From Pseudarthrobacter psychrotolerans (GTDB lineage: Bacteria > Actinomycetota > Actinomycetes > Actinomycetales > Micrococcaceae), in NCBI RefSeq assembly GCF_009911795.1, contig NZ_CP047898.1:3968001-4032000 (forward strand): DNA of 64,000 nucleotides. Direction: 5' to 3'. Position 1 is the first letter of the stretch; each line of letters begins with the position of its first letter. The notes below the pieces were generated by a model. The model searched no databases. It was given only the letters and a program-made list of their open reading frames with translations, and was not told the DNA's origin. Positions 35,384 through 52,043 of the stretch are shown piece after piece. The translations under genes and the position numbers were made by a program.

Positions 35384-36406
35384 CTACCGCGTTCCCGGTG
35401 CCGCTCCGGTTGAACCGCGCACCGTGAGATGCGTCGGCATCAGGGAGCGACTGCGGCTACCACCGCCCGCCAGCGGGTTGAGCTGGGCCAAGAGCATGGA
35501 CACGGCCACGCGGCCGGCCTGTTCGATCGGGGAAGCCATGGTGGTCAGCGGGGGATTGCAGAAGTCCGCGCCGAAGATGTCGTCGCAGCCCACCACGCTC
35601 ATGTCCTCCGGGACCCGGATGCCGCGTTCGCGCAGCCGCTGCAGCATGCCGATGGCGATGAGGTCGTTAAAGGCAATGCAAGCGGTGACGCCGGAGTGCA
35701 CGGCCGCGTCTGCTGCGGCGGCACCTGACTGTGTCTTAGGGGCGAACGGGCCGAGCCTGCGCACCTCCACGCCGCGGTCCTCGGCGGCGGCCGCCAGGGC
35801 TATCCAGCGAAGAGTGCTGGATTGGGACGTGAGGGGGCCGGCCATGTAGGCGATGCGGGTGTGGCCGAGCGAGATCAGGTGGTCCAAGGCCTGGCTGGTG
35901 GCGGACGGTGTGTCAATGACGACGGCGGGAATGCCGGCTACGTCGCGGTTGATGGTCACCATGGGAATCCTGGCGGCCGCGGCCAGCAGCGCCTCATCGC
36001 TGAGCCTGGACGCGGCGACGATGATTCCGTCGGCGCTCTTGCGCAGCTGCTCCATGGTGGAGGCCTCCACTTCGTCGGACTCTTCGGTGTCCACGAGCAG
36101 CTGGGTGTAGCCGGCCGCCTTGAGCTGCAGCTGGGTGCCCCGGATGAGGTCAAAATAGAAGGGGTTGGTGATGTCCGGCACCAGGACGCCGACGGCGCCG
36201 GTGCGGCCGGAGCTCAGGGCCTTCGCCTGGCTGTTCGGCGTGTAGTTCAACTCGGCCGCAGCCGCTTCGATGCGCGCACGGGTGCGGATGTTGACGCGGT
36301 CCGGAGTGGAAAGGGCGCGGGACACGGTAGATGCGGCCACGCCGCAGATGGCGGCGATGTCGTGGATGGTGGCAGGGCGGTCTGTTCCGGCTGCTTGCAT
36401 CGCCAT
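35384..36406 (-). CDS. LacI-family regulator of the uronate/glycoside island (copy 1)
   Basis: A 340-residue LacI/GalR repressor. Helix-turn-helix TIHDIAAICGVAASTVSRAL, hinge NYTPNSQAKALSSGRTGAVG, and sensor domain with LVPDITNPFYFDLIRG and SVVGCDDIFGADFCNPPLTT. It is transcribed away from the isomerase/oxidoreductase operon. A TGGCAA-N4-TTGTCA operator in the shared region (36496-36511) and three more in the island are its likely sites. It closely resembles the second LacI gene at 46278 (both have TNPxxFDxIRG and CDDIFGAD-like segments), so which of the two binds these operators cannot be decided by sequence. Confidence 0.93.
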   Translation of the reverse strand: MAMQAAGTDRPATIHDIAAICGVAASTVSRALSTPDRVNIRTRARIEAAAAELNYTPNSQAKALSSGRTGAVGVLVPDITNPFYFDLIRGTQLQLKAAGYTQLLVDTEESDEVEASTMEQLRKSADGIIVAASRLSDEALLAAAARIPMVTINRDVAGIPAVVIDTPSATSQALDHLISLGHTRIAYMAGPLTSQSSTLRWIALAAAAEDRGVEVRRLGPFAPKTQSGAAAADAAVHSGVTACIAFNDLIAIGMLQRLRERGIRVPEDMSVVGCDDIFGADFCNPPLTTMASPIEQAGRVAVSMLLAQLNPLAGGGSRSRSLMPTHLTVRGSTGAAPGTR

Positions 36407-36495
36407 GGCGCGCTCCTCACTGAACGGGATGACAGGGGGCTTGTGACGGTTGCCACAGCCCTGTAGCTCCTAGATTGCCACAGGATGCAATCATT

Positions 36496-36534
36496 TGGCA
36501 ATCGGTTGTCATTGACAGTTGACGTGTCTAGACT
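36496..36534 (+). promoter_or_regulatory. LacI operator/promoter module 1
   Basis: Operator TGGCAATCGGTTGTCA (36496-36511). Its last six bases TTGTCA act as the -35; a 17-base spacer leads to TAGACT (36529-36534) as the -10. It drives the operon starting at 36623. A second overlapping -35, TTGACA at 36512, is possible. Confidence 0.75.
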
Positions 36535-36622
36535 TAGGGCAGCACTTTTTGTGAACTGAGTCACCCGCGCGCCGGAGCGGCACCAAGGCTGTCCCGTCGC
36601 GGGCATACCTAAGGAGATTCCC

Positions 36623-37483
36623 GTGACCGCAACACCAACCGAAGCAACAAACACCGTCTGGCAGCTCTCAGGATTCGGCGATGAAGTGGATCCGGACCCC
36701 GCCGTTCAGGCCGCTGTCCTGCTTGCACTGGGCGCGAGCTACATCGAAGTACGCAGCGCCTGGGGTGTCAACGTCTCCGAGCTGACGCCGGAGCAGGTTA
36801 CCGAGCTGAAGGAAATCCTGGACGCCAAGGGCCTGAAGGTCTCCGCCGTGGCCAGCCCCATCGGCAAGGTGGACATCAGCTTGCCTGTGGAGCACGAAGT
36901 GGAACGCCTCCGCCAGATCATCTCCGTAGCCAAGGGACTGGATACAAAGTACATCCGGGTATTTTCCTTCTACCGGAGTGAAACCCAGACGCCGGAAGAA
37001 ATCCGCGACGACGTCATCACGCGCATGCGGGCACTGGCCGCTGAAGCCGCAAGCGCCGGCGTCGTACTCCTGCACGAGAACGAAAAGGACATTTACGGCG
37101 ATACGCCGCAGCGCGTCCTGGACATCATGGAGTCCGTCGACTCGCCCGCACTGCGCATCGCCTGGGACAACGCCAACTTCGTCCAGGTTGGCGTCCGGCC
37201 GTACACCGATGGATACGCCATGCTCCGCCCCTACCTCGAATACCTCCAGGTCAAGGACGCCATCATGGCCACGGGCGAGGTTGTTCCTTCCGGCCATGGC
37301 GACGGCGAACTCGACGCCACCATTGCCGCCCTGAAGGCGGACGGGTACGCAGGTTTCGCCTCCCTGGAACCGCACCTCGCCAGCCACCATGAACTGGGTG
37401 GCTTCTCCGGGCCGGTTGCCTTCGGCAGCGCCGCCCGCGCATTCGCGGTCCTTGCCGCCAAGAACGGAATCGAACTTTCGTGA
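36623..37483 (+). CDS. Sugar phosphate isomerase/epimerase-like TIM-barrel protein (pair 1)
   Basis: A 286-residue AP-endonuclease-2-like (xylose isomerase-like) TIM barrel. GTG start with AAGGAG 6 bases upstream. Metal-ligand segments are visible: VVLLHENEKDIYG (Glu), LRIAWDNANFVQVG (Asp), YLQVKDAI, and FASLEPHLASHH (Glu) near the end. Its stop overlaps the next gene's GTG by 4 bases, so it acts with the Gfo/Idh/MocA oxidoreductase. Enzymes of this fold isomerise sugars or cleave 3-keto-glycosides; the specific reaction is not known. Confidence 0.85.
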   Translation: MTATPTEATNTVWQLSGFGDEVDPDPAVQAAVLLALGASYIEVRSAWGVNVSELTPEQVTELKEILDAKGLKVSAVASPIGKVDISLPVEHEVERLRQIISVAKGLDTKYIRVFSFYRSETQTPEEIRDDVITRMRALAAEAASAGVVLLHENEKDIYGDTPQRVLDIMESVDSPALRIAWDNANFVQVGVRPYTDGYAMLRPYLEYLQVKDAIMATGEVVPSGHGDGELDATIAALKADGYAGFASLEPHLASHHELGGFSGPVAFGSAARAFAVLAAKNGIELS

Positions 37484-38493
37484 CGGGCCTCAAGGCCGCA
37501 GTTATCGGCTGCGGTGACGTGTCAGCAGTGCACTTCGAAGCCATCGCAAAGCTCGACGGCGCGCGGCTGGCCGGTGTCTGTGACTCTGATCCCGGCCGCC
37601 TTGCGGCGTCTGTGGCGGCCTATGGCGTCCCGGGGTTCCCGGATCACCTCAGCCTGATCGAGGCCATCGGACCGGATGTTGTGCACGTTACGACGCCGCA
37701 CAACATGCACGCCTCGATTGCGGCGGACTGCCTTGAGCGTGGCGTGAATGTGATTGTTGAAAAGCCGCTCGCGCATTCGCTCGAGGAAGGCCGCCGGCTG
37801 GTGGAGGCTGCCAAAGCGTCCACTGCCAAGATTGCCGTCTGTTTCCAGAACCGCTACAACGCCACTGCACAGGCCATGCATTCCCTGCTGTCCTCCGGTG
37901 AGCTCGGCGCGGTAGTAGGGGCTTCGGCGACCGTGCTGTGGCAACGGGAGGCGGACTATTACCGCAGCCGGCCGTGGCGCGGAACCTGGGAGGGCGGCGG
38001 CGGCGGGCTCATGATGAACCAGGCCATCCACACTGTTGACCTGCTGCAGTGGCTGGTGGGCGACGTCGTTTCGTTGTCCGGCAACGCGGCCACCAGGTTC
38101 CTGGGCGAAACCATCGAGGTGGAGGATACGGCGGAGTTTGTTGCCCAGCACGCCAACGGTGCGCGCAGCGCCTTCTACGCAACGCTGGCCAATGCCGCGA
38201 ACGCGCCGGTCACCCTGGATATTGTCACGGAAAAAGCGACTCTCAGTCTTCGTGGGGACTTGACGGTCACTTATGCGGACGGCCGCGTGGACGTGGTCCC
38301 CGAGCGTGTGGTGGAGTCCGGTGGGCGCGCCTACTGGGGGGTCTCGCATGAGCTGCTCATTGCTGATTTCTATGCCCGCCTCGGCGACTCGGGTCCGTTC
38401 TGGATCAACCCTGAAGAGGCCGAGAAATCTCTGAAAATCGTCAAGGAGATTTACCGCCAGAGCTACCCGGACGCGACGGAGAAAGTCTCCTGA
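37480..38493 (+). CDS. Gfo/Idh/MocA-family oxidoreductase (pair 1)
   Basis: NAD(P)-dependent sugar/polyol dehydrogenase, 337 residues. Rossmann segment AAVIGCGDVSAVHFEAIAKL; the catalytic Lys is in VIVEKPLAHSLEEG; the C-terminal domain has GGGLMMNQAIHTVDLLQWLV with a conserved His. This fold oxidises or reduces ring hydroxyls of sugars and inositols. It overlaps the TIM-barrel gene and ends the first operon; a LacI-type promoter/operator follows at 38569. A second pair of the same two families occurs at 44074-46160. Confidence 0.9.
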   Translation: MTGLKAAVIGCGDVSAVHFEAIAKLDGARLAGVCDSDPGRLAASVAAYGVPGFPDHLSLIEAIGPDVVHVTTPHNMHASIAADCLERGVNVIVEKPLAHSLEEGRRLVEAAKASTAKIAVCFQNRYNATAQAMHSLLSSGELGAVVGASATVLWQREADYYRSRPWRGTWEGGGGGLMMNQAIHTVDLLQWLVGDVVSLSGNAATRFLGETIEVEDTAEFVAQHANGARSAFYATLANAANAPVTLDIVTEKATLSLRGDLTVTYADGRVDVVPERVVESGGRAYWGVSHELLIADFYARLGDSGPFWINPEEAEKSLKIVKEIYRQSYPDATEKVS

Positions 38494-38568
38494 GCTGCTC
38501 ACGGCAACCGGTTGAAGCCGGTTAGAACGTTTCATTCACGGCGATTTTCGCCTAGATTGCAACAATAT

Positions 38569-38607
38569 TGACAATCGGTTGCCAAAGTTGGCAATCATGC
38601 GTATTCT
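38569..38607 (+). promoter_or_regulatory. LacI operator/promoter module 2
   Basis: Operator TGACAATCGGTTGCCA (38569-38584), with TTGCCA as -35, a 17-base spacer, and TATTCT (38602-38607) as -10. A weaker site, CGGCAACCGGTTGAAG, lies at 38502-38517, and an extra half-site GGCAATC falls within the spacer. It drives the importer operon. Confidence 0.75.
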
Positions 38608-38685
38608 GAATCTCGAAGGCCGGTGTGGCCCACGCCACACCGGCCCAATCGCAACTCTCACGTTCCACAGATTCAGGAGCCAACA

Positions 38686-40215
38686 ATGAAGTTAGGTCCC
38701 AAGGCGGCAGCAGCCGCCCTCATCGTCAGCGCAGCACTGGCGCTGACTGCGTGCGGCGGCGGCGCCCCGGGCGGTACCGCTGCGGGAGCAGCCAAGACAA
38801 CCACCCTGACGTTGGGCGCCGTCCAGGAAATCCGCTCCTGGGATCCGGCCCAGGCCCACGTGGGCCACTTCCTGCAGCCCTACCAGGCCGCCTACGATTC
38901 CCTGCTTCTCCGGGAACCGGATGGCAAGCTCAGCCCGATGCTGGCCACGGCCTGGAAGTACAACGACACCCACACCAAGCTCACCGTGGACCTGCGCACA
39001 GACGTGACGTTCAGCGACGGCGCTAAGTTTGATGCCGCCGCAGCCAAGGCAAACCTGGATCACTTCAAAACCGCCAATGGTCCGCAGATGGCACAGCTCA
39101 CCGCCGTCTCGGAGGTCAAGGTGGTTGATGCTGACACTATCGAGCTGGACCTGACCGCCGCTGACCCTTCCCTGGAGTTCTACCTCAGCCAGGCCGCCGG
39201 CCTGATGGGCAGCCCCAAGGCGCTGGGCACCGAGGGTATCAAGACCGAACCTGTGGGCAGCGGCCCGTACGTGATGGACAAGGCAGCAACGGTCAAGGAC
39301 TCACAGTCCGTGTTCACAGCCCGCAAGGACTACTGGAACAAGGACAACCAGAAGTTCGAGAAGATCACCTTCAAGATCCTGCTTGACTTGACCGCCCGCA
39401 CCAACGCACTGGTTTCGGGACAGGTTGACGCCACGCTGCTGGATCCCAAGACCGGCAAGCAGGCAGAGGGATCCAAGATGATCCTCGCCGCGAACGAGGT
39501 GGACTGGCAGGGCCTGACGCTGTTCGACCGCGATGGCGCCAAGAACCCGGCACTGGCCAATGTCAAGGTCCGCCAGGCCATCAACTACGCGTTTGACCGC
39601 AAGACGATCCTCGACCAGGTCCTGCTGGGCCAGGGCACGCCCACGTCCCAGCCCTTCGGCAAGGCCAGCGGCGCCTGGGTTGAAGACCTTGAGAACAAGT
39701 ACCCCTACGACCCAGCCAAGGCGAAAGCACTGCTGAAGGAAGCAGGCTTCGAAACCGGCGTCGTCCTCGAGCTCCCGTCCGTTCCCGGGTTTGAAACCCA
39801 GCTGGCAGTAGTCAAGCAGCAGCTCTCTGACGTCGGCATCACCGTGAACATTGGTGCCGCGATCACCAACACCTACACCACGGACATCGCCGGGCAGAAG
39901 TTCACCAGCATGTACTTCTCGCTCTTCCAGGGTGAGCCGTGGGTTGCCATCAACCAGATCGTCTCCACGAAGGCCCTGTACAACCCGTTCAAGAACACCA
40001 GCCCCGAGCTGCAGGCCAAGATCGATGCCGTGCAGAACGGTGGAAAGGATGCTGCAAAGCTGGCCCAGGACGTCAACCGGTATGTGGTTGACCAGGCGTG
40101 GTTCGCCCCGCTGTTCCGCGTGAACCAGATGTACTACCACAACTCCAAGATCAACGTCACGCCGCAGATCCAGCAGGCTGTCCCGTCGATCTACAACTAC
40201 TCGCCCGCAAAGTAG
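38686..40215 (+). CDS. Opp/Dpp-type ABC substrate-binding lipoprotein
   Basis: Family 5 solute-binding protein, 509 residues. Signal peptide KLGPKAAAAALIVSAALAL with lipobox LTAC (Cys about residue 22), then a Gly/Ala linker. Typical segments are EIRSWDPAQAHVGHFLQPYQ, DVTFSDGAKFDAAAAKANLD, GSGPYVMDKAA and VRQAINYAFDRKTILDQVLL. AGGAG precedes the ATG by 7 bases. Family 5 proteins bind peptides but also glycosides and oligosaccharides; the surrounding uronate genes point to a sugar-containing ligand. A strong hairpin follows the stop. Confidence 0.92.
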   Translation: MKLGPKAAAAALIVSAALALTACGGGAPGGTAAGAAKTTTLTLGAVQEIRSWDPAQAHVGHFLQPYQAAYDSLLLREPDGKLSPMLATAWKYNDTHTKLTVDLRTDVTFSDGAKFDAAAAKANLDHFKTANGPQMAQLTAVSEVKVVDADTIELDLTAADPSLEFYLSQAAGLMGSPKALGTEGIKTEPVGSGPYVMDKAATVKDSQSVFTARKDYWNKDNQKFEKITFKILLDLTARTNALVSGQVDATLLDPKTGKQAEGSKMILAANEVDWQGLTLFDRDGAKNPALANVKVRQAINYAFDRKTILDQVLLGQGTPTSQPFGKASGAWVEDLENKYPYDPAKAKALLKEAGFETGVVLELPSVPGFETQLAVVKQQLSDVGITVNIGAAITNTYTTDIAGQKFTSMYFSLFQGEPWVAINQIVSTKALYNPFKNTSPELQAKIDAVQNGGKDAAKLAQDVNRYVVDQAWFAPLFRVNQMYYHNSKINVTPQIQQAVPSIYNYSPAK

Positions 40216-40236
40216 CCCAGCGACGTAGCCTTCCGG

Positions 40237-40275
40237 TTCCGGCACGCCGCCCCGTCCAGGGGCGGCGTGCCGGAA
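40237..40275 (+). terminator. Intra-operon attenuating hairpin
   Basis: Seventeen-base perfect arms (40237-40253 and 40259-40275) and a 5-base loop, GC-rich with no T tract. It lies between the binding protein and first permease genes, where such hairpins usually raise binding-protein mRNA over the membrane subunits. Confidence 0.7.
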
Positions 40276-40313
40276 CAAGGCAGCCAACCCATGCCAGTTC
40301 AACGGAGCCAGCA

Positions 40314-41255
40314 ATGATCACTTTCATTCTCAAACGCCTCGGCAGCGGACTCGTCGTTCTGTTCGCCGTCTCGATCCTCGTTTTTTCCCTGCTCTACGTA
40401 TCGAGCGGCAGCATAGCGCGGAACATCCTGGGCGACCAGGCAACGCCGGAGCAGCTGGCCGTGAAGGAAGCCGAACTGGGGCTCGACCAGCCCATCATCA
40501 CGCGCTATTTCAGCTGGCTCACCCACGCACTGAGCGGGGACCTCGGCACATCGTGGTTCACCTCTGAGCCCGTCGCCAACGCGCTGGCCACGCGCATTCC
40601 GGTGACCATGACCATGGTGATTGCAGCCATGCTCCTGATCTCCATCATCGCCACCCTCATCGGCGTTGCCGCGGCAGTAAAGCGCGGCTGGGTGGACAGA
40701 ATCGTCCAGATCGGCGCCATCATCGGTGATTCCGTTCCAGGCTTTGTCATCGGCATCATCCTGGTGACCATCCTGGCCATCCAGATGGGCCTTTTCCCCG
40801 CCACCAGCACCATCTCGCCCGGTGTCGGAGCGGACGCCTGGGTACTTTCCCTGACCCTTCCGGTGATTGCGCTGCTGATCAACGGCGTCACTGGCGGTGC
40901 CCAGCAGATCCGCAGCGCCGTCATCAAGCAGCTCGAACGCGATTATGTCCGCACCCTGCGCAGCCGCGGAATCGGCGAGACCGAGGTCCTGTTCAAGCAC
41001 GTCCTGCGCAGCGCAGCTCCGGCCGGCCTGACCGTACTCAGCCTCCAGCTGATCGGCATGCTCGGCGGTGTGGTCATCATCGAGCAGATCTTTGCCCTGC
41101 CCGGCATGGGGCCACTCGCCGTAGCCGCCACCAGCCAGAGTGACCAGCCCGTGGTCATGGGCGTCGTTATGTACACCGTCGCCGTTGTCATTGTGGTCAA
41201 CCTCATTGTTGACATGCTCAACGGCTGGCTTAACCCGAAGGTGCGTGTCTCGTGA
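40314..41255 (+). CDS. Opp/Dpp-type ABC permease 1 (DppB-like)
   Basis: A 313-residue membrane protein: MITFILKRLGSGLVVLFAVS is the typical first span, followed by a periplasmic loop (EAELGLDQPIITRYFSWLTH) and five more spans. The EAA-type loop RDYVRTLRSRGIGETEVLFK-like region and C-terminal IIEQIFALPGMGPLAVAA are family features. The ATG has GGAG about 7 bases upstream; the frame is open into the binding-protein gene. Its stop overlaps the next GTG (GTGA, 41252-41255). Confidence 0.93.
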   Translation: MITFILKRLGSGLVVLFAVSILVFSLLYVSSGSIARNILGDQATPEQLAVKEAELGLDQPIITRYFSWLTHALSGDLGTSWFTSEPVANALATRIPVTMTMVIAAMLLISIIATLIGVAAAVKRGWVDRIVQIGAIIGDSVPGFVIGIILVTILAIQMGLFPATSTISPGVGADAWVLSLTLPVIALLINGVTGGAQQIRSAVIKQLERDYVRTLRSRGIGETEVLFKHVLRSAAPAGLTVLSLQLIGMLGGVVIIEQIFALPGMGPLAVAATSQSDQPVVMGVVMYTVAVVIVVNLIVDMLNGWLNPKVRVS

Positions 41256-43124
41256 CCGAGTCCGTCGAAACCTCTGCCCTGACGCCCGCACCCGGAACGT
41301 CGGGCCAGACCGGAACCGTTGTCCGCTCAACAGTCCTCAAGCGGCTGCTGAAGAATCCTCTTGGCATCATCGCCATCGTTATCCTGCTGGCGATGGCCTT
41401 CATGGCCGTATTTGCCGACGCCCTGGCCCCGTTCGAAGAGAACTTCGCCAACATTTCCAAGACCCTCGCCGCGCCGGACTCTGTCAACATTCTCGGCACC
41501 GACAGCTCGGGACGTGATGTCTGGAGCAGACTGCTGTTCGGGGCACAGCTGACACTGAGCTCGGCGCTGCTGTGCGCCGCCGTCGCCATTGCCATCGGCC
41601 TGCCGGCAGGCCTGATCGCCGGCTACTACGCCGGCAAGTTCGAAGCGGCCTCCAACTGGGTTGTCAGCATCCTGATGAGCCTTCCGGGCCTTATCGTCCT
41701 GCTGACCATCCGGGCCGCGTTCGGCCCTTCGGTCTGGATTGCCATGATCGCCTTCGGCGTCCTGATCAGCCCTTCCTACTTCCGGCTGACCCGGTCGGCG
41801 GTACAGTCGGTCCGCAACGAACTCTATGTGGATGCTGCGCGGGTCTCGGGGCTCTCCGATTTCAGCATCATCGTCCGCCATATCTTCTCCGTGGTACGCG
41901 CCCCGATCATCATCCAGACTGCTGCAATCGCCGGCGTCGCCATCGCCATCCAGTCCGGACTCGAGTTCCTGGGCCTGGGCGATCCGGCCAAAGCCACCTG
42001 GGGCGTCATGCTCAGTGAGGGCTTCAAGAACGTATACCTCAACCCGACCCTGCTCTTCTGGCCTGCGTTTGCCATGGCGCTGACCATCGGCGCCCTGGTC
42101 CTGCTGGGCAACGCCCTCCGTGACGCCCTGGAAGACGGCGAAAAAATCAAGCACCGCAGGCAGAAAGCACATCAAGCCGAAGATGCTGCGGCAGCCAGCG
42201 CCGCCAAGGCAGCGCGGAAGACCATTGCGGCCGTCGAGGCCGGAACCGAACACCACCTCGTCAAGGTGACCAACCTCGGCGTCGGCTACCCCAGGCGGAC
42301 GGATCCATCAAGAAAGTGGTGGATGACGTCTCCTTCCACGTTGACCGCGGCGAAATCCTCGGCATCGTGGGCGAATCCGGGTCGGGTAAGTCCCAGACTG
42401 CCTTCTCCATCCTGGGCCTGCTGCCGGACACCGCACGAATCGTGGGCGGCGCCATCCAGTTCGATGGCAACTACACGGTCGCTCCAGGTGAGGACAAGGT
42501 CAACCAGGGCCGCCTCTCCAAGCTGCGCGGCAAGCGGATTTCCTACATCCCGCAGGAACCCATGAGCAACCTGGACCCGGCCTTCACCATCGGCTACCAG
42601 CTGGTTACGCCCATGGTGCGTGTCCTGGGAATCACCAAGGCCGAAGCCACCAAGCGGGCCATGAAGCTGCTCTCCGACGTCGGCATCGTCAGCCCGGAGC
42701 GCACCTTCAAGGCCTACCCTCACGAGGTATCCGGTGGCATGGCCCAGCGTGTGCTTATCGCCGGCGCCATCAGCTGCGAACCGGACCTCATCATTGCCGA
42801 TGAGCCCACCACCGCACTGGACGTCACGGTCCAGGCCGATGTGCTGGACCTCATCCGCGACCTCCAGCGCCGGCTCGGCGTCGGCGTCATCCTGGTGACC
42901 CACAACTTCGGCGTTGTGGCTGACCTCTGCGACCGTGTTGTGGTCATGCAGAACGGCCGGCTGGTGGAGGAGGGCCCGTGCGGGAGATCCTGCGCGAACC
43001 GAAGGAACGCTATACCCAGACTTTGTTGGCTTCGATGCTGGAAGGCAAGGAACCGATGACCATGCTGGTTTCAGCTGCTTCGTCTTCAACCGCGTCATCA
43101 AGTGCTAAGGAGAATGTCCTGTGA
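41252..43124 (+). pseudogene. ABC permease-ATPase fusion (DppC-DppD), broken by two frameshifts
   Basis: One long gene combining the DppC-like permease (about residues 1-300; LLKNPLGIIAIVILLAMAFM, LGTDSSGRDVWSRLLFGAQL, YVDAARVSGLSDFSIIVRHI) with an ATPase. A charged Ala/Lys-rich linker leads to HLVKVTNLGVGYP, where one C is missing (run 42289-42292). The ATPase continues in the next frame with VGESGSGKSQTAFSILGLLP, EVSGGMAQRVLIAGA and LIIADEPTTALDV. A second single-base loss near 42979 separates LVEEGP from VREILREPKERYTQTLL; the repaired frame stops at 43124, overlapping the next GTG. Repaired length is about 624 residues. Confidence 0.87.
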
Positions 43125-44026
43125 CGGAAACTGCAGCCTCAAGCGCCGCGGTATCGGCCCCGGCACGCGAAGAACTCCTTCGCGTCGAGAACCTGGTGGT
43201 GGACTACGCAGGCAAGGGTTTCCGCGCCAAGAAATTCCGCGCCCTGACCGACATCAATATCAGCATCGGCCAGGGTGAGACCCTGGGCCTCGTGGGCGAA
43301 TCAGGGTCGGGTAAGACCACCCTGGGCCGGTCTGTACTGGGTCTCGCGCCGGTGAGCGGCGGCAAGATCACCTTCGAAGGCCAGGACATCAGCCACGCCA
43401 CCCGCAAGCAGCGGCGCGTCCTCAGCCGCGACATGCAGGTGGTCTTCCAGGATCCCTACACGTCACTGAACCCCGCCCTGGAAATCGGCGACATTCTGGC
43501 CGAACCCCTGGGCGTGCAGGGCATGGAGCAGGCAGCAGCAAAGAAACGCGTGAAGGAGCTCCTGGACCAGGTTGGCCTCCCGTCGGACGCCATCCACCGG
43601 CTTCCGCGCGAGTTCAGCGGCGGCCAGCGCCAGCGCGTGGCGATTGCCCGCGCCCTGGCACTGTCTCCCAAGCTCATCGTCTGTGATGAGCCGGTCAGCG
43701 CACTGGACCTCTCCACCCAGGCCCGCGTCCTGGATCTCTTCCTGCAGATCCAGAAGGACACGGGCGTCTCCTACCTGTTTGTCTCCCACGACCTTGACGT
43801 GGTCCGCCACATCAGCCACCGTGTAGCCGTGATGTACCGTGGAGAAATCGTGGAGCAGGGGCCGGCAGAGATCGTCACGCGCAACCCCGAGCACCCCTAC
43901 ACGCAGCGGTTGCTGCTCGCTTCCCCGGTGCCGGATCCGGACCGCCAGGAGAAGCGCCGTGCCGACCGTCACCGGCTGCTCGAAGAACAGCGCCAGCAGA
44001 ACGAGCAGGCCGCTGTCCTTGCCTAG
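43121..44026 (+). CDS. Opp/Dpp-type ABC ATPase (DppF-like)
   Basis: Second ATPase of the importer, 301 residues, GTG start overlapping the fusion gene's stop. Walker A LGLVGESGSGKTTLGRSVLG, Q loop VVFQDPYTSLNPALE, signature [20 protein letters not shown], Walker B LIVCDEPVSALDLST and the H loop VSHDLDVVRHIS are all intact. The C-terminus contains HPYTQRLLLASPVPDPDRQE, typical of the oligopeptide subfamily. With the fused permease-ATPase it completes the two-ATPase importer. The TIM-barrel gene follows after 47 bases. Confidence 0.94.
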   Translation: MTETAASSAAVSAPAREELLRVENLVVDYAGKGFRAKKFRALTDINISIGQGETLGLVGESGSGKTTLGRSVLGLAPVSGGKITFEGQDISHATRKQRRVLSRDMQVVFQDPYTSLNPALEIGDILAEPLGVQGMEQAAAKKRVKELLDQVGLPSDAIHRLPREFSGGQRQRVAIARALALSPKLIVCDEPVSALDLSTQARVLDLFLQIQKDTGVSYLFVSHDLDVVRHISHRVAVMYRGEIVEQGPAEIVTRNPEHPYTQRLLLASPVPDPDRQEKRRADRHRLLEEQRQQNEQAAVLA

Positions 44027-44073
44027 GGCTCGTGCCCGAACTAACTCAACAGCAACAACAATGGAGGAATAAC

Positions 44074-44934
44074 GTGGCCAAAATTGGCGTACAGGCAATG
44101 ATGCTGAAGGACAGCTTCACCGAAATCGGGGCGTTCGAAACGCTCCGCAAGGTCAGCGACATCGGCTACAACGCCGTCGAGATCTCGCAGATCCCGATGA
44201 CGCCGGAAAACGTCGCTGAACTGGATCGGTCCCGCAGCGAGCTGGGCATGGACATCGCAGCCCTTTCCGTGGCCATGGAGACTCCCAAGGGCCGGCCCGG
44301 CGATTCCCTGGCGGAGCACTTTGACAAGATCGTGGATGACGCCAAGAGCCTGGACTCGAAATTGCTGCGGATCGGTATGCTGCCGTTCGAGGCAATGACG
44401 TCCATCGGCGCGGTGATTGACTTCGCCAAGCAGGCCAACGAGTATGCCGAGCGCCTGCGGGAGCAGGGCCTGGGGCTGTACTACCACAACCACCACATCG
44501 AGTTCGCGAAGTTCGACGGCAAATACATGCTGGACATCATTGCGGAGAACTCCCCGGCCATGGGCATGGAAATCGACGTGCACTGGGTCCAGCGCGGCGG
44601 CCTGGACCCGGTCCGCACGCTGGAAAAGTACGCCGGCCGCACGGCCATGGTCCACCTGAAGGACTACCGGATAGGCCAAATGCCGGAGTCGGCCATGGGT
44701 CTGCTGGATTCCGGCGACTTTATGGGCTTCATGGCCGAGTTCAAGAATGTTGTCCAGTTCGCCGAAGTGGGCGAAGGCAACCTGGACTTCGCATCCATCA
44801 TCCCGGCCGCGCAGGCTGCCGGCGCCGAGTACCTGCTGGTGGAACAGGACGAACTCTATGGCCGCACGGTTTGGGAAGCGCTGCAGACTTCCTACGACAA
44901 CCTGATTGCCCTGGGCCAGTCCGAGCTCTTCTAA
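44074..44934 (+). CDS. Sugar phosphate isomerase/epimerase-like TIM-barrel protein (pair 2)
   Basis: A 286-residue AP-endonuclease-2-like barrel. GTG start with GGAGG 7 bases upstream. Metal and active-site segments are GLGLYYHNHHIEFAKFDG, MGMEIDVHWVQRGGLDP (Asp and His), TAMVHLKDYRIG (His) and YLLVEQDELYGR (Glu). It is clearly a different subgroup from the pair-1 barrel at 36623. It lies between the importer ATPase and a second Gfo/Idh/MocA oxidoreductase in one operon, so it probably processes the imported compound. Confidence 0.87.
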   Translation: MAKIGVQAMMLKDSFTEIGAFETLRKVSDIGYNAVEISQIPMTPENVAELDRSRSELGMDIAALSVAMETPKGRPGDSLAEHFDKIVDDAKSLDSKLLRIGMLPFEAMTSIGAVIDFAKQANEYAERLREQGLGLYYHNHHIEFAKFDGKYMLDIIAENSPAMGMEIDVHWVQRGGLDPVRTLEKYAGRTAMVHLKDYRIGQMPESAMGLLDSGDFMGFMAEFKNVVQFAEVGEGNLDFASIIPAAQAAGAEYLLVEQDELYGRTVWEALQTSYDNLIALGQSELF

Positions 44935-44993
44935 GCGGACTGATCTCCACAATCTTTTCGACAAGCTCAACCCACGAAAAAGGATAAACAACT

Positions 44994-46160
44994 GTGAGCA
45001 AGAAAGTACGCCTCGGCATCATCGGCCTGGGCCAGCAGGGCGGCGCTTACGCCAAGTTCATCACGGACGGCATGGTTCCCAACATGGTGATCGGGGCCAT
45101 CTGCGACACCGATCCGGCCAAGAAGGAGATTGCCTCGGCCACATACCCCGACGCTCCCTTCTATGACGACTACATCGCGATGCTGGAAAGCGGCGACGTT
45201 GACGCCGTCGTGACCTGCGTGCCGCACTTCCTGCACCCGGAAATGGGCATCGAGACCCTGAAACGCAACATCCACGCGCTGGTGGAGAAGCCGGCCGGCG
45301 TCTACACCAAGCAGGTCAAGGAACTGAACGAGTTCGCGGCCTCCAAGCCTGAGCTCTCCTTCGGCATCATGTTCAACCAGCGCAACAACCCGCTGTACAA
45401 GAAGCTCAAAGAGATTGTGGAAAATGGCGAGATCGGTGCCATCCGCCGCAGCAACTGGATCATCACCAACTGGTGGCGTCCCCAGGGCTACTACAACTCG
45501 AGCGAATGGCGCGCGACGTGGGGCGGCGAAGGCGGCGGCGTCCTGGTCAACCAGGCACCGCACCAGCTGGACCTGTGGCAGTGGATCTGTGGCGTGCCGA
45601 AGTCCGTCTACTCCAAGGTTTCCTTCGGCTTCCGCCGCGACATCGCCGTCGAAGATGAAGTGACTGCGGTGGTTGACTATGGAGACGGTGTTACCGGCGT
45701 ATTTGTCACCGCCACCCACGATCTGACCGGCACCGACCGCTTCGAGATCCTGGGCGACCAGGGCAAGATCGTCGTCGAGGGCAGCAAGACCGCCACGGTG
45801 ACGCGCCTGCACAAGCCCGAGCGGGAGCTCAGCGACGGCATGGGCATGGACGATGTCCGCAAGCTCTTTATGGGCGAGCTGAATCCGGAGGAGTACTACA
45901 CCACTGAGGTCATCGAGTTCGAGTCCGCTTGGGGTGCCCAGCACTCCGGCGTCCTGGAGAACTTCGCCGCCAACATCCTGGACGGCACGCCGCTGCTCGC
46001 TCCGGGTTCGGACGGCATCAACGGCGTCCGCCTGGCCAACGCCATCCACCTCTCCGCCTGGACCGGCAAAGAAGTTGGACTGGACTTCGACGAGAACGAA
46101 TTCCTCGCCGAGCTCAACAAGCGCATCGCCGAAGAAGGCAAGTTCCCGCAGCGCGCGTAA
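44994..46160 (+). CDS. Gfo/Idh/MocA-family oxidoreductase (pair 2)
   Basis: A 388-residue NAD(P)-dependent dehydrogenase, GTG start. N-terminal VRLGIIGLGQQGGAYAKFIT, catalytic Lys in HALVEKPAGVYTKQVKELNE, GGGVLVNQAPHQLDLWQWIC with conserved His, and FVTATHDLTGTDRFEILGDQ in the C-terminal domain. It is longer than the pair-1 enzyme and closer to the glucoside-oxidising type (by VNQAPHQLDLWQW). It is the last gene of the importer operon; a strong hairpin follows. Confidence 0.9.
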   Translation: MSKKVRLGIIGLGQQGGAYAKFITDGMVPNMVIGAICDTDPAKKEIASATYPDAPFYDDYIAMLESGDVDAVVTCVPHFLHPEMGIETLKRNIHALVEKPAGVYTKQVKELNEFAASKPELSFGIMFNQRNNPLYKKLKEIVENGEIGAIRRSNWIITNWWRPQGYYNSSEWRATWGGEGGGVLVNQAPHQLDLWQWICGVPKSVYSKVSFGFRRDIAVEDEVTAVVDYGDGVTGVFVTATHDLTGTDRFEILGDQGKIVVEGSKTATVTRLHKPERELSDGMGMDDVRKLFMGELNPEEYYTTEVIEFESAWGAQHSGVLENFAANILDGTPLLAPGSDGINGVRLANAIHLSAWTGKEVGLDFDENEFLAELNKRIAEEGKFPQRA

Positions 46161-46199
46161 CCTCCTGGGTGACTCCTGGGTGAGCAGCGGAGCTGACCA

Positions 46200-46241
46200 G
46201 CAGCTGTGGCCGTTTTGGACCATCAAAACGGCCACAGCTGC
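46200..46241. terminator. Hairpin ending the importer operon
   Basis: Eighteen-base perfect arms (46200-46217 and 46224-46241) with a 6-base loop; the stem carries four T and four A near the loop. It separates the oxidoreductase from the LacI gene. Confidence 0.75.
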
Positions 46242-46265
46242 GACCTGCTTAGGTGGTTTCATCGT

Positions 46266-46271
46266 TAGGAT
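46266..46271 (+). promoter_or_regulatory. -10 box, probable leaderless start for LacI gene
   Basis: TAGGAT lies exactly six bases before the GTG at 46278, so transcription would begin at the start codon. No ribosome site is seen. Confidence 0.5.
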
Positions 46272-46277
46272 GGGGCG

Positions 46278-47339
46278 GTGACTGAACCCCAAACGCCGGA
46301 CACCGCCCCATCAACGGGTTCGGTCAGAAAGCACGGCCGCGACCGCAAATCCAACGCGACCATCTACGACATCGCCAAGATGGCCGGCGTCAACGCGTCC
46401 ACCGTTTCCCGCGCGCTCAGCAAGCCGGGCAGGGTCAGCCCCAAGACGCAGAAGCTCATCGAGGATGCGGCCGCCCAGCTGAACTACCAGGTCAATCCGT
46501 TCGCGCGCGCCCTTCCCACGGGCAAGACCAACACGTTCGGCCTCATCGTCGCGGACATCACCAACCCCACCTTCTTTGACATCATCCGCGGCGCAGAGAC
46601 CACCGCAACCAGCCGGGACTACACCCTGGTGCTCGCCGAGTCGGCGGAGTCCCCGGCGACGGAACTGACTGCAGCCCGCCGGCTGATGGCCACGGTGGAT
46701 GGGCTTATTCTCGCGAGCCCGCGCATGGACGATGACAACATCCGCGCCCTGGCCCGGGACAAACCCGTGGTGGTCATCAACCGCGAAGTGGAGGGCGTGC
46801 CGTGCGTGGTGCCGGACGTCAACAAGGGGATCAGCGAGGCGGTCCGCAGCTTGGCCGCCAACGGCCACACAAGGGTTGCCTATGTGGCGGGCCCGCCGGA
46901 ATCCTGGATGTCCGAACGCCGCTGGGAGGGCGTGCAGGCGGCCTGCGAGTGGTCCCGGCTTGAGGCCGTGCGGCTTGAGTCCAGCAAACCAACGGTCGAC
47001 GGCGGCCGGCAGACTGCGCGTGATGTCCGCGCCAGCGGTGCCACTGCGGTCCTGACGTACAACGACCTGCTGGCCATCGGGCTCATGCAGGAACTCCAGG
47101 CCGCCGGCGTGGTGGTGCCCGACCACATCAGCATCGTCGGCTTTGACGACATCTTCGGCGCGGACTTCACGACTCCGCCGCTCACCACCGTGCGTTCGCC
47201 GTTGGGGGAGTGCGGCGAGGCGGCCGCCACACGCCTGTTGGACTTTCTCCACGGGAGCGGGGAACAGACCGGCACCTTGAGCGTGGAGACTGAGCTTGTG
47301 CTGCGCGGCTCCAGCGGTAGGATCCTGCCCGCGAAGTGA
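46278..47339 (+). CDS. LacI-family regulator of the uronate/glycoside island (copy 2)
   Basis: A 353-residue LacI/GalR repressor, GTG start. Helix-turn-helix TIYDIAKMAGVNASTVSRAL, hinge NYQVNPFARALPTGKTNTFG, sensor domain LIVADITNPTFFDIIRGAET and SIVGFDDIFGADFTTPPLTT. It is paralogous to the regulator at 35384. It sits between the importer operon and uxaC; the uxaC promoter has an overlapping TGGCAA-N4-TTGACA operator. It may respond to a uronate or its breakdown intermediate. Confidence 0.93.
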   Translation: MTEPQTPDTAPSTGSVRKHGRDRKSNATIYDIAKMAGVNASTVSRALSKPGRVSPKTQKLIEDAAAQLNYQVNPFARALPTGKTNTFGLIVADITNPTFFDIIRGAETTATSRDYTLVLAESAESPATELTAARRLMATVDGLILASPRMDDDNIRALARDKPVVVINREVEGVPCVVPDVNKGISEAVRSLAANGHTRVAYVAGPPESWMSERRWEGVQAACEWSRLEAVRLESSKPTVDGGRQTARDVRASGATAVLTYNDLLAIGLMQELQAAGVVVPDHISIVGFDDIFGADFTTPPLTTVRSPLGECGEAAATRLLDFLHGSGEQTGTLSVETELVLRGSSGRILPAK

Positions 47340-47374
47340 GTCCTGACGGGCCGATTCCAGCATTTGGCAATTTA

Positions 47375-47413
47375 TGGCAACCGGTTGACAAAACTCGGCA
47401 CCAGGCAGATTAT
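47375..47413 (+). promoter_or_regulatory. LacI operator/promoter module 3
   Basis: Operator TGGCAACCGGTTGACA (47375-47390), with consensus -35 TTGACA, 17-base spacer, and GATTAT (47408-47413) as -10. The uxaC ATG comes six bases later, so the transcript is probably leaderless. Confidence 0.75.
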
Positions 47414-47419
47414 TGATCT

Positions 47420-48826
47420 ATGTCACAGTCGATTGCTGCCAACCCAGACAGGCTCCTGCCCGCCGACCCCGGAACGCGCAGCATTGCGCGCGGCCTCCTT
47501 GCGCGCGTACAGGACCTCCCCATCATCTCCCCGCACGGCCACGTTGACGCCGCCGTCATCGAGCACAACACGCCGTTCCCCGACCCGGCAGCGCTGCTCG
47601 TCAGCCCGGACCACTACGTCACGCGCCTGATCCACGCCAACGGCGCCCCCTTGGACAGGCTGCGGGCCGGCGGTCCCACGGCGCCCGAGTCACGCGAAAT
47701 CTGGCGCACGTTCGTCGAGGCCTGGCCGCTCTTTGAGGGCACGGCCTCCGGCTACTGGCTGCGCAATCAGTTCGACAGCGTCTTCAACCTGGGCGCAGAC
47801 CTGGGCGACATGTCCGCCGATGCCAGCTATGACGCCATCGCCGCCAAGCTCGTGGAGCCCGGCTTCCGTCCCCGCCAGCTTTTCAAAGACTTCAACATCG
47901 AGGTCCTGGCCACCACGGACGATCCCCTGGACAACCTCGCCAGCCACAAGGCCATCGCCGAGGACTCCACCTTCAACGGCCGCGTCCTGCCCACGTTCCG
48001 CCCGGACGCCTACCTCAACATTGCGCACCCCACCTGGTGCGCCAACGTAGACCGCCTGATCGAAACAGCCGGTGACGGCGCCAACGGCTACGCGGGCTAC
48101 ATCACGGCCCTGGAAAACCGCCGCCGCTACTTCGTGGAGCACGGCGCAGTCTCGGCGGACCACGGTGTGGCCACCCCGGCAACGCTCAAGCTGGACCGCG
48201 CCGAAGCCGAAAGGATCTTCGAGCTCGCCCGCGCCGGCAAGGCCACGGCCGAGGACCGCAACACCTTCGAAGCCCACATGATGTACCAGATGGGTCGCAT
48301 GTCGGTGGAGGACGGGCTGGTCATGACCATCCACCCGGGCTCGTTCCGCAACCACCACACGCCCACGTTCGAGGCCTTCGGTGCCGACACCGGCCACGAC
48401 ATCCCGTTCGCCACCAACTACACCGAGGCCATCCGCCCGCTGCTGCAGGACTTCGGCACGGCCAAGGACTTCCACCTGGTGCTGTTCACCCTGGACGAGA
48501 CCGTGTTTTCCCGCGAGCTGGCACCACTGGCCGGCTTCTACCCGTCCGTCTACCTGGGCGCACCCTGGTGGTTCCTGGACGCCCCGGATGCCATGCTCCG
48601 GTTCCGCTCCGCCGTGACCGAAACAGCCGGGTTCTCCCGTTCCTCCGGTTTCATCGACGACACCAGGGCCTTCTGCTCCATTCCCGCCCGCCACGATGCG
48701 TCCCGCCGGATCGAAGCCTCCTTCCTGGCCCGCCTCGTGGCCGAGCACCGTGTCAGTGAAGACCGTGCCCACGAAATCATCGTGGACACCGTCGATTCCT
48801 CCCCGCGAAGGGTTTTCAAACTGTGA
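47420..48826 (+). CDS. uxaC: Glucuronate isomerase
   Basis: Converts D-glucuronate to D-fructuronate (or galacturonate to tagaturonate); amidohydrolase-type barrel, 468 residues. The N-terminal metal motif is LPIISPHGHVDAAVIEHNTP; WLRNQFDSVFNLG, DFNIEVLATTDDPLDNLASH, GLVMTIHPGSFRNHH and SVYLGAPWWFLDAP are family segments. No Shine-Dalgarno site is present and the -10 box is six bases upstream, indicating a leaderless mRNA. The stop overlaps the uxuB GTG by 4 bases. The enzyme fits with UxuB and ManD in a glucuronate pathway. Confidence 0.96.
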   Translation: MSQSIAANPDRLLPADPGTRSIARGLLARVQDLPIISPHGHVDAAVIEHNTPFPDPAALLVSPDHYVTRLIHANGAPLDRLRAGGPTAPESREIWRTFVEAWPLFEGTASGYWLRNQFDSVFNLGADLGDMSADASYDAIAAKLVEPGFRPRQLFKDFNIEVLATTDDPLDNLASHKAIAEDSTFNGRVLPTFRPDAYLNIAHPTWCANVDRLIETAGDGANGYAGYITALENRRRYFVEHGAVSADHGVATPATLKLDRAEAERIFELARAGKATAEDRNTFEAHMMYQMGRMSVEDGLVMTIHPGSFRNHHTPTFEAFGADTGHDIPFATNYTEAIRPLLQDFGTAKDFHLVLFTLDETVFSRELAPLAGFYPSVYLGAPWWFLDAPDAMLRFRSAVTETAGFSRSSGFIDDTRAFCSIPARHDASRRIEASFLARLVAEHRVSEDRAHEIIVDTVDSSPRRVFKL

Positions 48827-50259
48827 GCATCGAACAGACGGACGCAGCAGTCGAGGCAGCCGAATCCCTGCCGCAGCTGAACCGAACCACGCACGTCGCC
48901 GCCAAGCCGCCGGTGCGGATCGTCCACCTCGGACTCGGTGCCTTCCACCGCTCGCACCAGGCCTGGTACACCAGCCAGGCCAGCGACGCCGCTGACTGGG
49001 GCATCGCCGCTTTCACCGGCCGCCGCCCGGACGCTGCCCTGGCTCTTGCCGAGCAGGACGGCCTCTTCACGCTCGTGGAGCGCGCTGACAGCGGCGACTC
49101 GTTCTCCGTCGTCGGCAGCATCGTCGAAGCGGTAGACGGCGCGGACGTGCAGCGGCTTGCAGAGCTCGTTTCGGCGCCCGCCACGGCCATGGTCACCTTG
49201 ACGGTCACCGAGGCGGCGTACCGGCTCGGTGCCGACGGGCAGCTGGACACGACGGCGTCCGACGTCGCCGGCGACCTTGCGCTGCTGGCGTCCGGCAGCG
49301 GAAACCCGTCGACGCCGCTGGGCAGGCTTGTGTTCGCCCTCGCCGCGCGCCGGGCTGCCGGAGCCGGGCCGCTCGCCGTCGTCTGCTGCGACAACCTCGC
49401 CAACAACGGCACGGTAGCCCGCAACGCCGTGGCGGGCCTGGCCCAGGCCTGGGACGCGGAGCTCGCTGCCTGGGTCGAGGAAAACGTCAGCTTTGTCAGC
49501 ACGTCCGTGGACCGCATCACCCCGCGCACCACGGAAGCGGACATCGCCGCCGTCGAGGCCGCCTGCGACTACCGCGACAACTCGCCCGTAGTGGCAGAGC
49601 CCTTCACCAACTGGGTGCTCAGCGGAGATTTCCCCGCCGGCCGCCCGCGCTGGGAAGATGCCGGCGCAGTCTTCGTTGACCACATCGAGCCCTACGAAAA
49701 CCGCAAGCTGTGGCTCCTGAACGGCGCCCATTCCCTGCTGGCCTACGCCGGCCAGCTCCGCGGACACACCACGGTGGCGCAGGCCCTCGCGGACCCGCAG
49801 TGCCTGACCGCCGTCGAAAGCTTTTGGGACGAGGCCGAGGCGAACCTGTCCGGCGCCGCGGCCGGCGGCGCGGACCTGCAGGTCCCGGCGTACCGCGCCG
49901 CCCTGCTGGCCCGCTTCAGCAATGCGCGTATTGCCCACCACCTCGCCCAGATCGCCATGGACGGCAGCACCAAGCTGCGCATGCGGGCCGTGCCTGTCCT
50001 CTTGGCCGAACGGGCCCAGGGCAAGTCCGGTGCCGCTGCGGCGCTGATGATCGCAGCCTGGATTGATTTCAGTGCCGCGGCCGAGACGTTCCACGATCCG
50101 TTGGCAGCAGAGGTGGCCGCGGCCAACCTGCTGGCGGGTACGGAGCGCGTGCGGGCGGTCCTGGCGCTGGTGGATCCTGCCGTCGCAGCGGACGACGCCG
50201 TGGTGGAGCTCGTTTCCGGCCTGCTCGGCACATTCACTGCGGGCGCCAGCAACGGCTGA
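48823..50259 (+). CDS. uxuB: Mannitol dehydrogenase-family fructuronate reductase
   Basis: Reduces D-fructuronate to D-mannonate with NADH; long-chain polyol dehydrogenase, 478 residues. RIVHLGLGAFHRSHQAWYTS holds the nucleotide site, FVSTSVDRITPRTTEAD and the catalytic Lys region NRKLWLLNGAHSLLAYAGQL are present. Adjacent genes uxaC and, downstream, manD make fructuronate the likely substrate over mannitol or tagaturonate. GTG start overlapping the uxaC stop. A terminator hairpin lies 18 bases after the stop. Confidence 0.92.
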   Translation: MSIEQTDAAVEAAESLPQLNRTTHVAAKPPVRIVHLGLGAFHRSHQAWYTSQASDAADWGIAAFTGRRPDAALALAEQDGLFTLVERADSGDSFSVVGSIVEAVDGADVQRLAELVSAPATAMVTLTVTEAAYRLGADGQLDTTASDVAGDLALLASGSGNPSTPLGRLVFALAARRAAGAGPLAVVCCDNLANNGTVARNAVAGLAQAWDAELAAWVEENVSFVSTSVDRITPRTTEADIAAVEAACDYRDNSPVVAEPFTNWVLSGDFPAGRPRWEDAGAVFVDHIEPYENRKLWLLNGAHSLLAYAGQLRGHTTVAQALADPQCLTAVESFWDEAEANLSGAAAGGADLQVPAYRAALLARFSNARIAHHLAQIAMDGSTKLRMRAVPVLLAERAQGKSGAAAALMIAAWIDFSAAAETFHDPLAAEVAAANLLAGTERVRAVLALVDPAVAADDAVVELVSGLLGTFTAGASNG

Positions 50260-50277
50260 CCGACTATTTGCTGTACG

Positions 50278-50311
50278 AACTGCCCGGTCCGGGATCCTGG
50301 ACCGGGCAGTT
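50278..50311 (+). terminator. Rho-independent terminator after uxuB
   Basis: Thirteen-base arms AACTGCCCGGTCC (50278-50290) and its complement (50299-50311), 8-base loop, followed by a T-rich CTGTTTT. Confidence 0.85.
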
Positions 50312-50341
50312 TCTGTTTTGTGAAGCTTCAACAGAAATTTA

Positions 50342-50380
50342 TGGCAACCGCTTGCCATTTTATTGCCAAGTGACTAGGAT
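50342..50380 (+). promoter_or_regulatory. LacI operator/promoter module 4
   Basis: Operator TGGCAACCGCTTGCCA (50342-50357), perfect half-sites TGGCAA and TTGCCA; TTGCCA is the -35, 17-base spacer, TAGGAT (50375-50380) as -10. It drives the symporter - manD - gluconokinase/GH3 operon with a leader of roughly 135 bases. Confidence 0.78.
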
Positions 50381-50522
50381 TACAGGCAACGAGAAACACA
50401 CGGCGGTACCCGCGCCGGATGCGGATTCTGCCGACTCCAGCATCACCAAAGATTCACCGCTTCATAGCATTTCAATAATTTTCGCTGGCCAACACGGCGG
50501 CAAGGGTAAAGGAGCCCAATTC

Positions 50523-51998: not shown

Positions 51999-52043
51999 CT
52001 TCCAGCACTACCAACTGACCAGAAGTCCCCGAAAGGATCTGCC

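Follow-up and report, generated by a model that had tools for sequence, protein, structure and literature searches.

The window analysed here, a stretch of 64,000 nucleotides from the 5.17-Mb genome of the soil actinobacterium Pseudarthrobacter psychrotolerans (G000:C1:3968001-4032000), contains an island of sugar genes with four operators that, together with a fifth one elsewhere in the genome, very probably form a single LacI-family regulon for the uptake and breakdown of glucuronides and glucuronate, in which a repressor dimer seated on the −35 box would exclude RNA polymerase. As judged from the sequence, a dimer of LacI1, LacI2 or both, the two LacI-family repressors encoded in the island, would bind a 16-bp palindrome whose right half is also the −35 box for the sigma factor, keeping RNA polymerase away from five operons (four in the window and one displaced importer at 1.72 Mb) until a sugar of the pathway released the repressor. 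Where the operator adjoins lacI1, control might extend to the divergent promoter of that gene. Many of the operators have a conserved third half-site at a distance of one helical turn from the palindrome, which the customary view of the family leaves unexplained; it would most likely represent a second, overlapping register for the same repressor (direct-repeat or shifted, CytR-like), able to hold or redistribute the dimer. What the sequences show is the sites, with their geometry, conservation and co-occurrence with the lacI genes; binding, repression, inducer, autoregulation and the role of the third half-site are inferred from them.

Operators Placed over the −35 Box

The original prediction described four identical modules of 39 bp, each with the right half of an operator TGGCAAN4TTGCCA as the −35 box, a spacer of 17 bp and a −10 box. 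The four operators are present at the places claimed, with 0–1 mismatch each when the bases are read directly, and the geometry was borne out in all of them, but the modules are not identical in their letters. Operator 1 (TGGCAATCGGTTGTCA, 36496..36511) has its right half TTGTCA at 36506-36511 and the −10 box TAGACT at 36529-36534; operator 2 (TGACAATCGGTTGCCA, 38569..38584) pairs TTGCCA with TATTCT (38602-38607); operator 3 (TGGCAACCGGTTGACA, 47375..47390) carries the consensus −35 box TTGACA followed by GATTAT (47408-47413); and operator 4 (TGGCAACCGCTTGCCA, 50342..50357), a perfect palindrome, combines TTGCCA with TAGGAT (50375-50380), all on the forward strand and with the 17-bp spacer. 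When up to two mismatches to TGGCAAN4TTGCCA are allowed, the window contains nine sites against a mean of 2.41 (standard deviation 1.48) after shuffling, and none of 100 shuffles reached nine.

The placement of the operator over the −35 box is kept among relatives. A −10 box of the form TANNNT follows the right half at a spacer of 17 or 18 bp in 58/58 promoters from five sets: those before the first TIM-barrel gene (TIM1, operator 1; 15/15, with a spacer of 17 in nine and 18 in six), before the substrate-binding protein gene (SBP, operator 2; 12/12, always at 17), before the GPH symporter gene (operator 4; 12/12, ten at 17 and two at 18), before the single operon of genomes with LacI1 only (15/15, two of these loci coming from genomes that also have LacI2), and before the displaced importer (4/4). 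In this regard, a chance overlap with the −35 box was rejected, given that over spacers of 0–30 bp TANNNT falls only at 17/18 in these five sets, the two exceptions being a GPH sequence with TANNNT at 23 and a sequence of the fifth-site set with it at 0. Operators were also seen before manD in four relatives (L087-L090) and stand outside these counts, which cover the TIM1, SBP, uxaC, GPH, LacI1-only-type and fifth-site sets. The block of RNA polymerase that had been predicted from the position of the operators gains support from this conserved overlap, and steric repression of the glucuronide regulon can be regarded as well supported.

The sixth set, that of uxaC, shows an identical operator 16-mer in 15/15 sequences, and its right half TTGACA, as read from the letters, deviates from the palindrome in the direction of the promoter consensus. 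The predicted 17 bp to a −10-like box hold here as well, but GATTAT is a weak box and the spacer is probably 17–18 bp. The box ends 6 nt before the ATG at 47420 (window 47408-47425). Across the 15 orthologous promoters the ATG lies 29 nt (five cases) or 30 nt (ten cases) past the end of the operator, a fixed distance from which a leaderless uxaC mRNA is predicted. The TIM1, SBP and symporter genes, unlike uxaC, are preceded by Shine-Dalgarno-like sequences.

The Operator across the Genome and the Genus

A scan of the whole genome, the check proposed along with the original prediction, found TGGCAANCGNTTGCCA with up to two mismatches at 20 places, against 5 for the reversed control pattern. Only five sites have at most one mismatch, namely the four operators of the window and a fifth at G000:C1:1721146, 2.28 Mb from the others; the remaining 15 places have two mismatches, and two of them lie within the window. 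All five operators share a central CG. As they are so few and each precedes a sugar transport or catabolism operon, the operator is not a motif that is common genome-wide without a link to sugar genes.

The fifth operator precedes a sugar importer of the SBP/MalF/MalG type, whose neighbours are an Xaa-Pro aminopeptidase gene and stress, magnesium and iron-sulfur genes, with no LacI-type helix-turn-helix (HTH) domain within 400 kb among the 24 matches to such domains in the genome. Its substrate-binding protein is the orthologue (65–70% identical) of the one encoded directly after lacI1 and the operator in 13 congeners that have LacI1 only, and on this ground the importer looks like a displaced member of the regulon, which would then comprise five operons and not the four originally proposed; these four stand, and the fifth operator with its operon had been missed. 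Copies of this importer away from lacI1 (in P. psychrotolerans, G015, G013 and G030) keep a perfect operator in 4/4 cases, with TACGCT or TACTCT as the −10 box at 18 bp. That the fifth site is the operator of an unrelated LacI protein was considered and found unlikely, the importer being orthologous to the one beside lacI1 elsewhere.

Across 36 congeners, the number of operators tracks the presence of the two lacI genes. Orthologues of the LacI1 type (68–97% identical to LacI1) occur in 27 of them: the 14 genomes with both LacI1-type and LacI2 genes have 3–7 sites with at most one mismatch, and the 13 with the LacI1 type only (68–71% identical) have 1–3 sites. Nine congeners have neither gene, and seven of these have no site and two a single one; the reversed control pattern gave 0–2 sites. 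In the 13 genomes with LacI1 only, the gene order is lacI1, divergent operator and SBP-MalF-MalG-TIM-oxidoreductase-uxaC-uxuB-manD, with the kinase/GH3 gene also found within the fetched stretch in 11/13; no second site with at most one mismatch occurs within these stretches except before the GPH gene in G001 and G009. In the group of the window, the same functions are divided among five units, each with its own operator/−35 module.

Both repressor genes of the island, predicted as paralogous LacI genes, proved to be so. The first, lacI1 (35384..36406, reverse strand), is divergent from operator 1 and matches PF00356 with 54.5 bits and PF13377 with 120.1 bits; the second, lacI2 (46278..47339, forward strand), lies at the end of operon 2 and scores 54.3 and 105.4 bits for the same HTH and periplasmic-binding-protein domains, all over the cut-offs. 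The two proteins are 43–45% identical and have in common the recognition-helix stretch ASTVSRAL, whose core STVSRAL appears in just one other of the 24 LacI-type HTH domains of the genome. Since genomes with LacI1 only have the full operator, a protein of the LacI1 type would suffice there alone.

A Third Half-Site One Helical Turn Away

Additional half-sites, absent from the original prediction, stand beside the operators, all of them near whole helical turns from a core half-site. At operator 3, in front of uxaC, TGGCAA occurs exactly 10 bp upstream (47365..47370; exact in 14/15 sequences and with at most one mismatch in 15/15), and at operator 4, in front of the GPH symporter gene, the right half is followed 11 bp downstream by TTGCCA, within the promoter spacer (50363..50368; 11/12 exact, 12/12 with at most one mismatch). 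Conservation is moderate for the TTGCCA found 21 bp before the start of operator 1 (36475..36480; 5/15 and 11/15, respectively) and weak for the TGGCAA found 20 bp after the start of operator 2 (38589..38594; 5/12 and 9/12); these four sites are read on the forward strand. Among the loci of the LacI1-only-type operon, 13/15 have an exact TGGCAA at −10 and 15/15 have it within one mismatch.

Within the class, 9/394 genomes have the exact 25-base pattern with three half-sites, and none has its reversed control. Five of the six matches outside the genus are next to a LacI gene 45–50% identical to lacI1, and the sixth has none within a 3-kb stretch. Of the nine proteins aligned in A1, five come from loci that were found through this pattern, which is a possible bias. 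A wider set was formed by the best 80 LacI1-type loci in titled genomes, ranked by likeness to LacI1 and not by DNA. The core occurs with at most two mismatches in 77 of these 80, and TANNNT follows it after 17 bp (41 loci) or 18 bp (29 loci). An exact TGGCAA stands at −10 in 34 of the 77, a number that rises to 58 when one mismatch is allowed, against a median of 0 for the scanned offsets; with at most one mismatch, TTGCCA also clusters at −11 (28), −21 (20) and +21 (17). Exact extra copies of TGGCAA were found only at −10 (34), −11 (2) and +30 (1), and those of TTGCCA at +21, +22, −21, +31 and +20, with no exact extra half-site where a 13-bp shift would place it (−13, +23).

The final count, made without selection among the loci, covered 79/80 of them, only L268, whose sequence is incomplete, being excluded, and the loci were grouped by the titles of their records. 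The 22 not labelled Arthrobacter-like (Sinomonas, Dactylosporangium, Leifsonia, Plantactinospora, Subtercola, Cellulomonas, Microlunatus, Phycicoccus, Virgisporangium, a Micrococcales record and three metagenome-assembled genomes) have TGGCAA exactly at −10 in 18, exactly at −11 in three and with one mismatch at −10 in one. The 57 Arthrobacter-like lacI1 loci have it exactly at −10 in 18 and with one mismatch in 23, eight of which also fit TTGCCA at −11; 16 have neither. This second group includes L237, a record titled Sporosarcina beigongshangi with the same operator and a LacI protein 76% identical to LacI1, which is possibly mislabelled or contaminated. In terms of information, counted over 74/80 loci (leaving out L267, L268, L284, L285, L287 and L290), 20 distant loci give 1.72 bits per base for the third half-site, 1.87 for the left core and 1.46 for the right half, over an upstream background of 0.34; the corresponding values in 54 Arthrobacter-like loci are 1.15, 2.0, 1.69 and 0.47. 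The fuller count over 79 loci left the picture for the distant ones unchanged, 22/22 having the half-site at −10 or −11 within one mismatch. Distant relatives thus keep the third half-site better than the canonical right half, and it reads as weakened at the lacI1 operator of the Arthrobacter group, operator 1 of the window included, and as kept at uxaC and the symporter.

Two other accounts of the third half-site were rejected. It does not seem to be a general feature of LacI loci, as 37 candidate palindromes at the 22 other LacI loci of the genome showed a single extra half-site (+20), in a loose control that included coding sequence and loci whose true motifs are not established. Neither does the divergent lacI1 promoter suffice to explain it, the half-site being kept at uxaC and GPH, where no divergent lacI is found.

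As the third half-site is oriented like its neighbour, a symmetric dimer cannot use both of its neighbours in the normal way. By analogy, there would be either a second register, one turn away and not occupied together with the first, or headpieces that accept a direct repeat as in CytR. A rather speculative form of the first of these, which we hold to be improbable, is a register-shift switch, with the arrangement TGGCAA-N4-TGGCAA-NCGN-TTGC offering two mutually exclusive registers 10 bp apart.

Weighing the Alternatives

Several observations weigh against a single regulon of this design. The roles of LacI1 and LacI2 are not told apart by co-occurrence, as all 14 congeners with LacI2, and P. 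psychrotolerans itself, also have a LacI1-type gene. Two congeners with neither lacI gene, G005 and G016, still hold one site each (TGGAAAGCGCTTGCCA and TGGCCATCGATTGCCA), several of the congener sites listed lie outside the island, and a perfect site in G013 (G013:C13:91621, L200:3621) has no recognised sugar gene among the six neighbouring open reading frames (ORFs) scanned; this site is 1.5 kb beyond lacI1, near genes for NAD synthase, a 3-hydroxyisobutyrate-dehydrogenase-like protein and enoyl-CoA hydratase. At the level of promoters, TANNNT is lacking before uxaC in 15/15 sequences (NANNNT occurs at 18 in 12/15), and neither group of 15 shows TANNNT at 17/18 bp in the reverse promoter towards lacI1, for which reason autoregulation of lacI1 is a weak possibility. 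The third half-site, finally, is missing in the 16 Arthrobacter-like lacI1 loci counted above, and window operator 1 has none at −10/−11.

The last of these points bear on the most serious of the competing explanations, according to which the palindrome does all the work and the third half-site is the mere trace of a lower-affinity second frame or of an operator duplication. This is possible, though we doubt it. The pair TGGCAA-N4-TGGCAA (site 47365) is merely two mismatches away from the palindrome, the extra half-sites at TIM1 and SBP are weakly conserved, and the gaps and the double fits at −11 among the Arthrobacter-like loci speak for it too; against it, all 22 distant loci keep the half-site, which over 20 of them has more information per base than the canonical right half and the upstream background, and conservation extends to uxaC and, on the opposite side, to GPH, neither of which has a divergent lacI to account for it. 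It is less likely that the two paralogues share the labour, one on the palindrome and the other on a shifted or extended register, with two sugar signals being integrated at each operator. The island does have two LacI genes, of the similarity given above and with the same ASTVSRAL stretch, but the operator keeps the third half-site with at most one mismatch in the LacI1-only type as well (13 congeners; 15/15 loci, including the two from LacI2 genomes), which argues that one protein is enough there.

Other explanations concern the repressor itself and the sense of its action. Some activators bind just upstream of the −35 box, the place taken by the third half-site at −10, and the LacI family includes CcpA, which is the best match of a solved structure by sequence profile; the operators might in consequence be activation sites or catabolite-control elements and not sites of simple repression. 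We regard this as very unlikely, since all five promoters have the −35 box itself inside the core, a position of repression, and since the right half at uxaC is the exact −35 consensus in 15/15. Even less credible is that the true owner of the sites is a different regulator, global or of the LacI family, with its gene elsewhere, for which the 24 LacI-type HTH matches of the genome speak: congeners without LacI1 and LacI2 have no site in 7/9 cases and one in the other two, the operators adjoin lacI1-type genes in other genera, and STVSRAL is restricted within the genome to lacI1, lacI2 and one other. Steric repression by LacI1, LacI2 or both, with the third half-site most likely serving as a second register of the same repressor, is the reading that we retain.

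Genes of the Glucuronide Island

The operators precede the four operons originally described, whose borders are deduced from gene order; all are on the forward strand. Operon 1 (36623..38493) encodes a xylose-isomerase-like TIM barrel (36623-37483) and a Gfo/Idh/MocA oxidoreductase (37480-38493). Operon 2 (38686..46160), described as the importer, contains an Opp/Dpp-type system (SBP_bac_5, two permeases and two ATPases) but also holds a second TIM-barrel/oxidoreductase pair and lacI2. Operon 3 (47420..50259) comprises uxaC for glucuronate isomerase and the gene of a mannitol-dehydrogenase-family, UxuB-like enzyme. Operon 4 (50523..55594) is formed by the genes of the GPH symporter (50523-51998), of ManD (52044-53273) and of a fusion of a GntK-type kinase with GH3 (53270-55594).

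Genes for the uptake of glucuronides, isomerisation and dehydration are over their cut-offs: the glucuronide GPH symporter matches NF007353 with 643 bits (cut-off 528), UxaC matches NF002794 with 557 bits (387) and the D-mannonate dehydratase ManD matches NF043051 with 689 bits (550). The reduction step is represented by the UxuB-like protein, whose best model, fructuronate reductase, gives 266 bits, below the cut-off of 603. The kinase part of the operon 4 fusion matches TIGR01313 with 186 bits (cut-off 113.75) and its GH3 part PF00933. In the relative G020, a beta-glucuronidase gene (882 bits, cut-off 544) lies between operator 4 and the symporter gene, and homologues with E ≤ 1e-30 were found in 6/18 genomes searched, always adjoining operator 4 and before the symporter (window 50358-50523 compared with L080:15166-16980). 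P. psychrotolerans itself has no beta-glucuronidase at E ≤ 1e-30, though the glucuronide symporter is retained. The curated scores of symporter, UxaC and ManD, together with the beta-glucuronidase adjoining operator 4 in relatives, fit a regulon for glucuronides.

Further features of these genes deserve mention. The kinase/GH3 fusion is one ORF of 774 amino acids, with TIGR01313 over residues 18-171 and the GH3 domain over 223-543, and it is matched over 99–100% of its length in G004, G012, G022, G033 and G023. The two pairs of TIM barrel and Gfo/Idh/MocA oxidoreductase span window 36623-38493 and 44032-46160; both oxidoreductases resemble glycoside 3-dehydrogenase models weakly, with scores far under the cut-offs, and a 3-keto-glycoside route for the pairs is hinted at. 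In the relative G030 (L091), oxidoreductase 1, a permease, lacI2 and the symporter each match as two pieces next to intact operators, either by sequencing errors or by decay.

Relation to Known LacI-Family Operators

The regulon itself is of an ordinary kind, that of LacI-family sugar regulons. A survey of the family lists regulators of glucuronate and galacturonate (ExuR, KdgR, UxaR and UxuR), and the words Arthrobacter and Micrococc- were not found in its main text (PMC4052901). Like the regulons surveyed, the present one combines HTH and periplasmic-binding-protein domains with a palindrome of central CG upstream of operons for sugar transport and catabolism; unlike them, it has extra half-sites at a distance of 10 or 11 bp from one of the core, where the survey describes inter-site peaks at 13, 22 and 32 bp. 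Operators overlapping at 13 bp were, according to the same text, not reconcilable with the structures, and a special binding mode was suggested (PMC4052901). One such case is GntR of gamma-proteobacteria at gntKU, with two overlapping operators conserved in orthologues; it is similar in having overlapping LacI-family sites at one operon and different in its distance of ~13 bp against 10–11 bp here (PMC4052901).

The nearest precedent is CytR, a member of the family described as binding both inverted and direct repeats, with spacers that approximate a whole number of helical turns. Its octamers form direct repeats with 1 bp between them (3 bp in one alternative), which gives a pitch of 9 or 11 bp, near the 10–11 bp found here (PMC3454398). 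Direct half-site repeats at a pitch of 10 or 11 bp are present in these operators, and the repressor may bind them in the manner of CytR. CytR, as described, acts with CRP as an anti-activator, whereas the present operator lies on the −35 box and has both a direct and an inverted repeat (PMC3454398). The cre-var sites of CcpA are likewise a non-canonical arrangement of LacI-family half-sites, but they differ in the variable spacer between two inverted repeats, and the abstract of that work mentions no third half-site (PMC5263246). No description of a three-half-site operator at 10/11 bp was found in the literature searched, which left out most subscription papers.

Gene order suggests that the single-operator cluster of some congeners is, in others, spread over five units with the same operator/−35 module. 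Moreover, the three-half-site operator offers a fixed and simpler geometry than the overlaps surveyed in the family, and one that is kept in several actinobacterial genera. If the register switch were true, one register would repress over the −35 box and the other, one turn upstream, would free it with the dimer staying on the promoter, a mechanism that would replace simple release. The natural variants within one regulon, with an upstream, a downstream and a weak copy of the third half-site, make the question of the binding mode directly testable.

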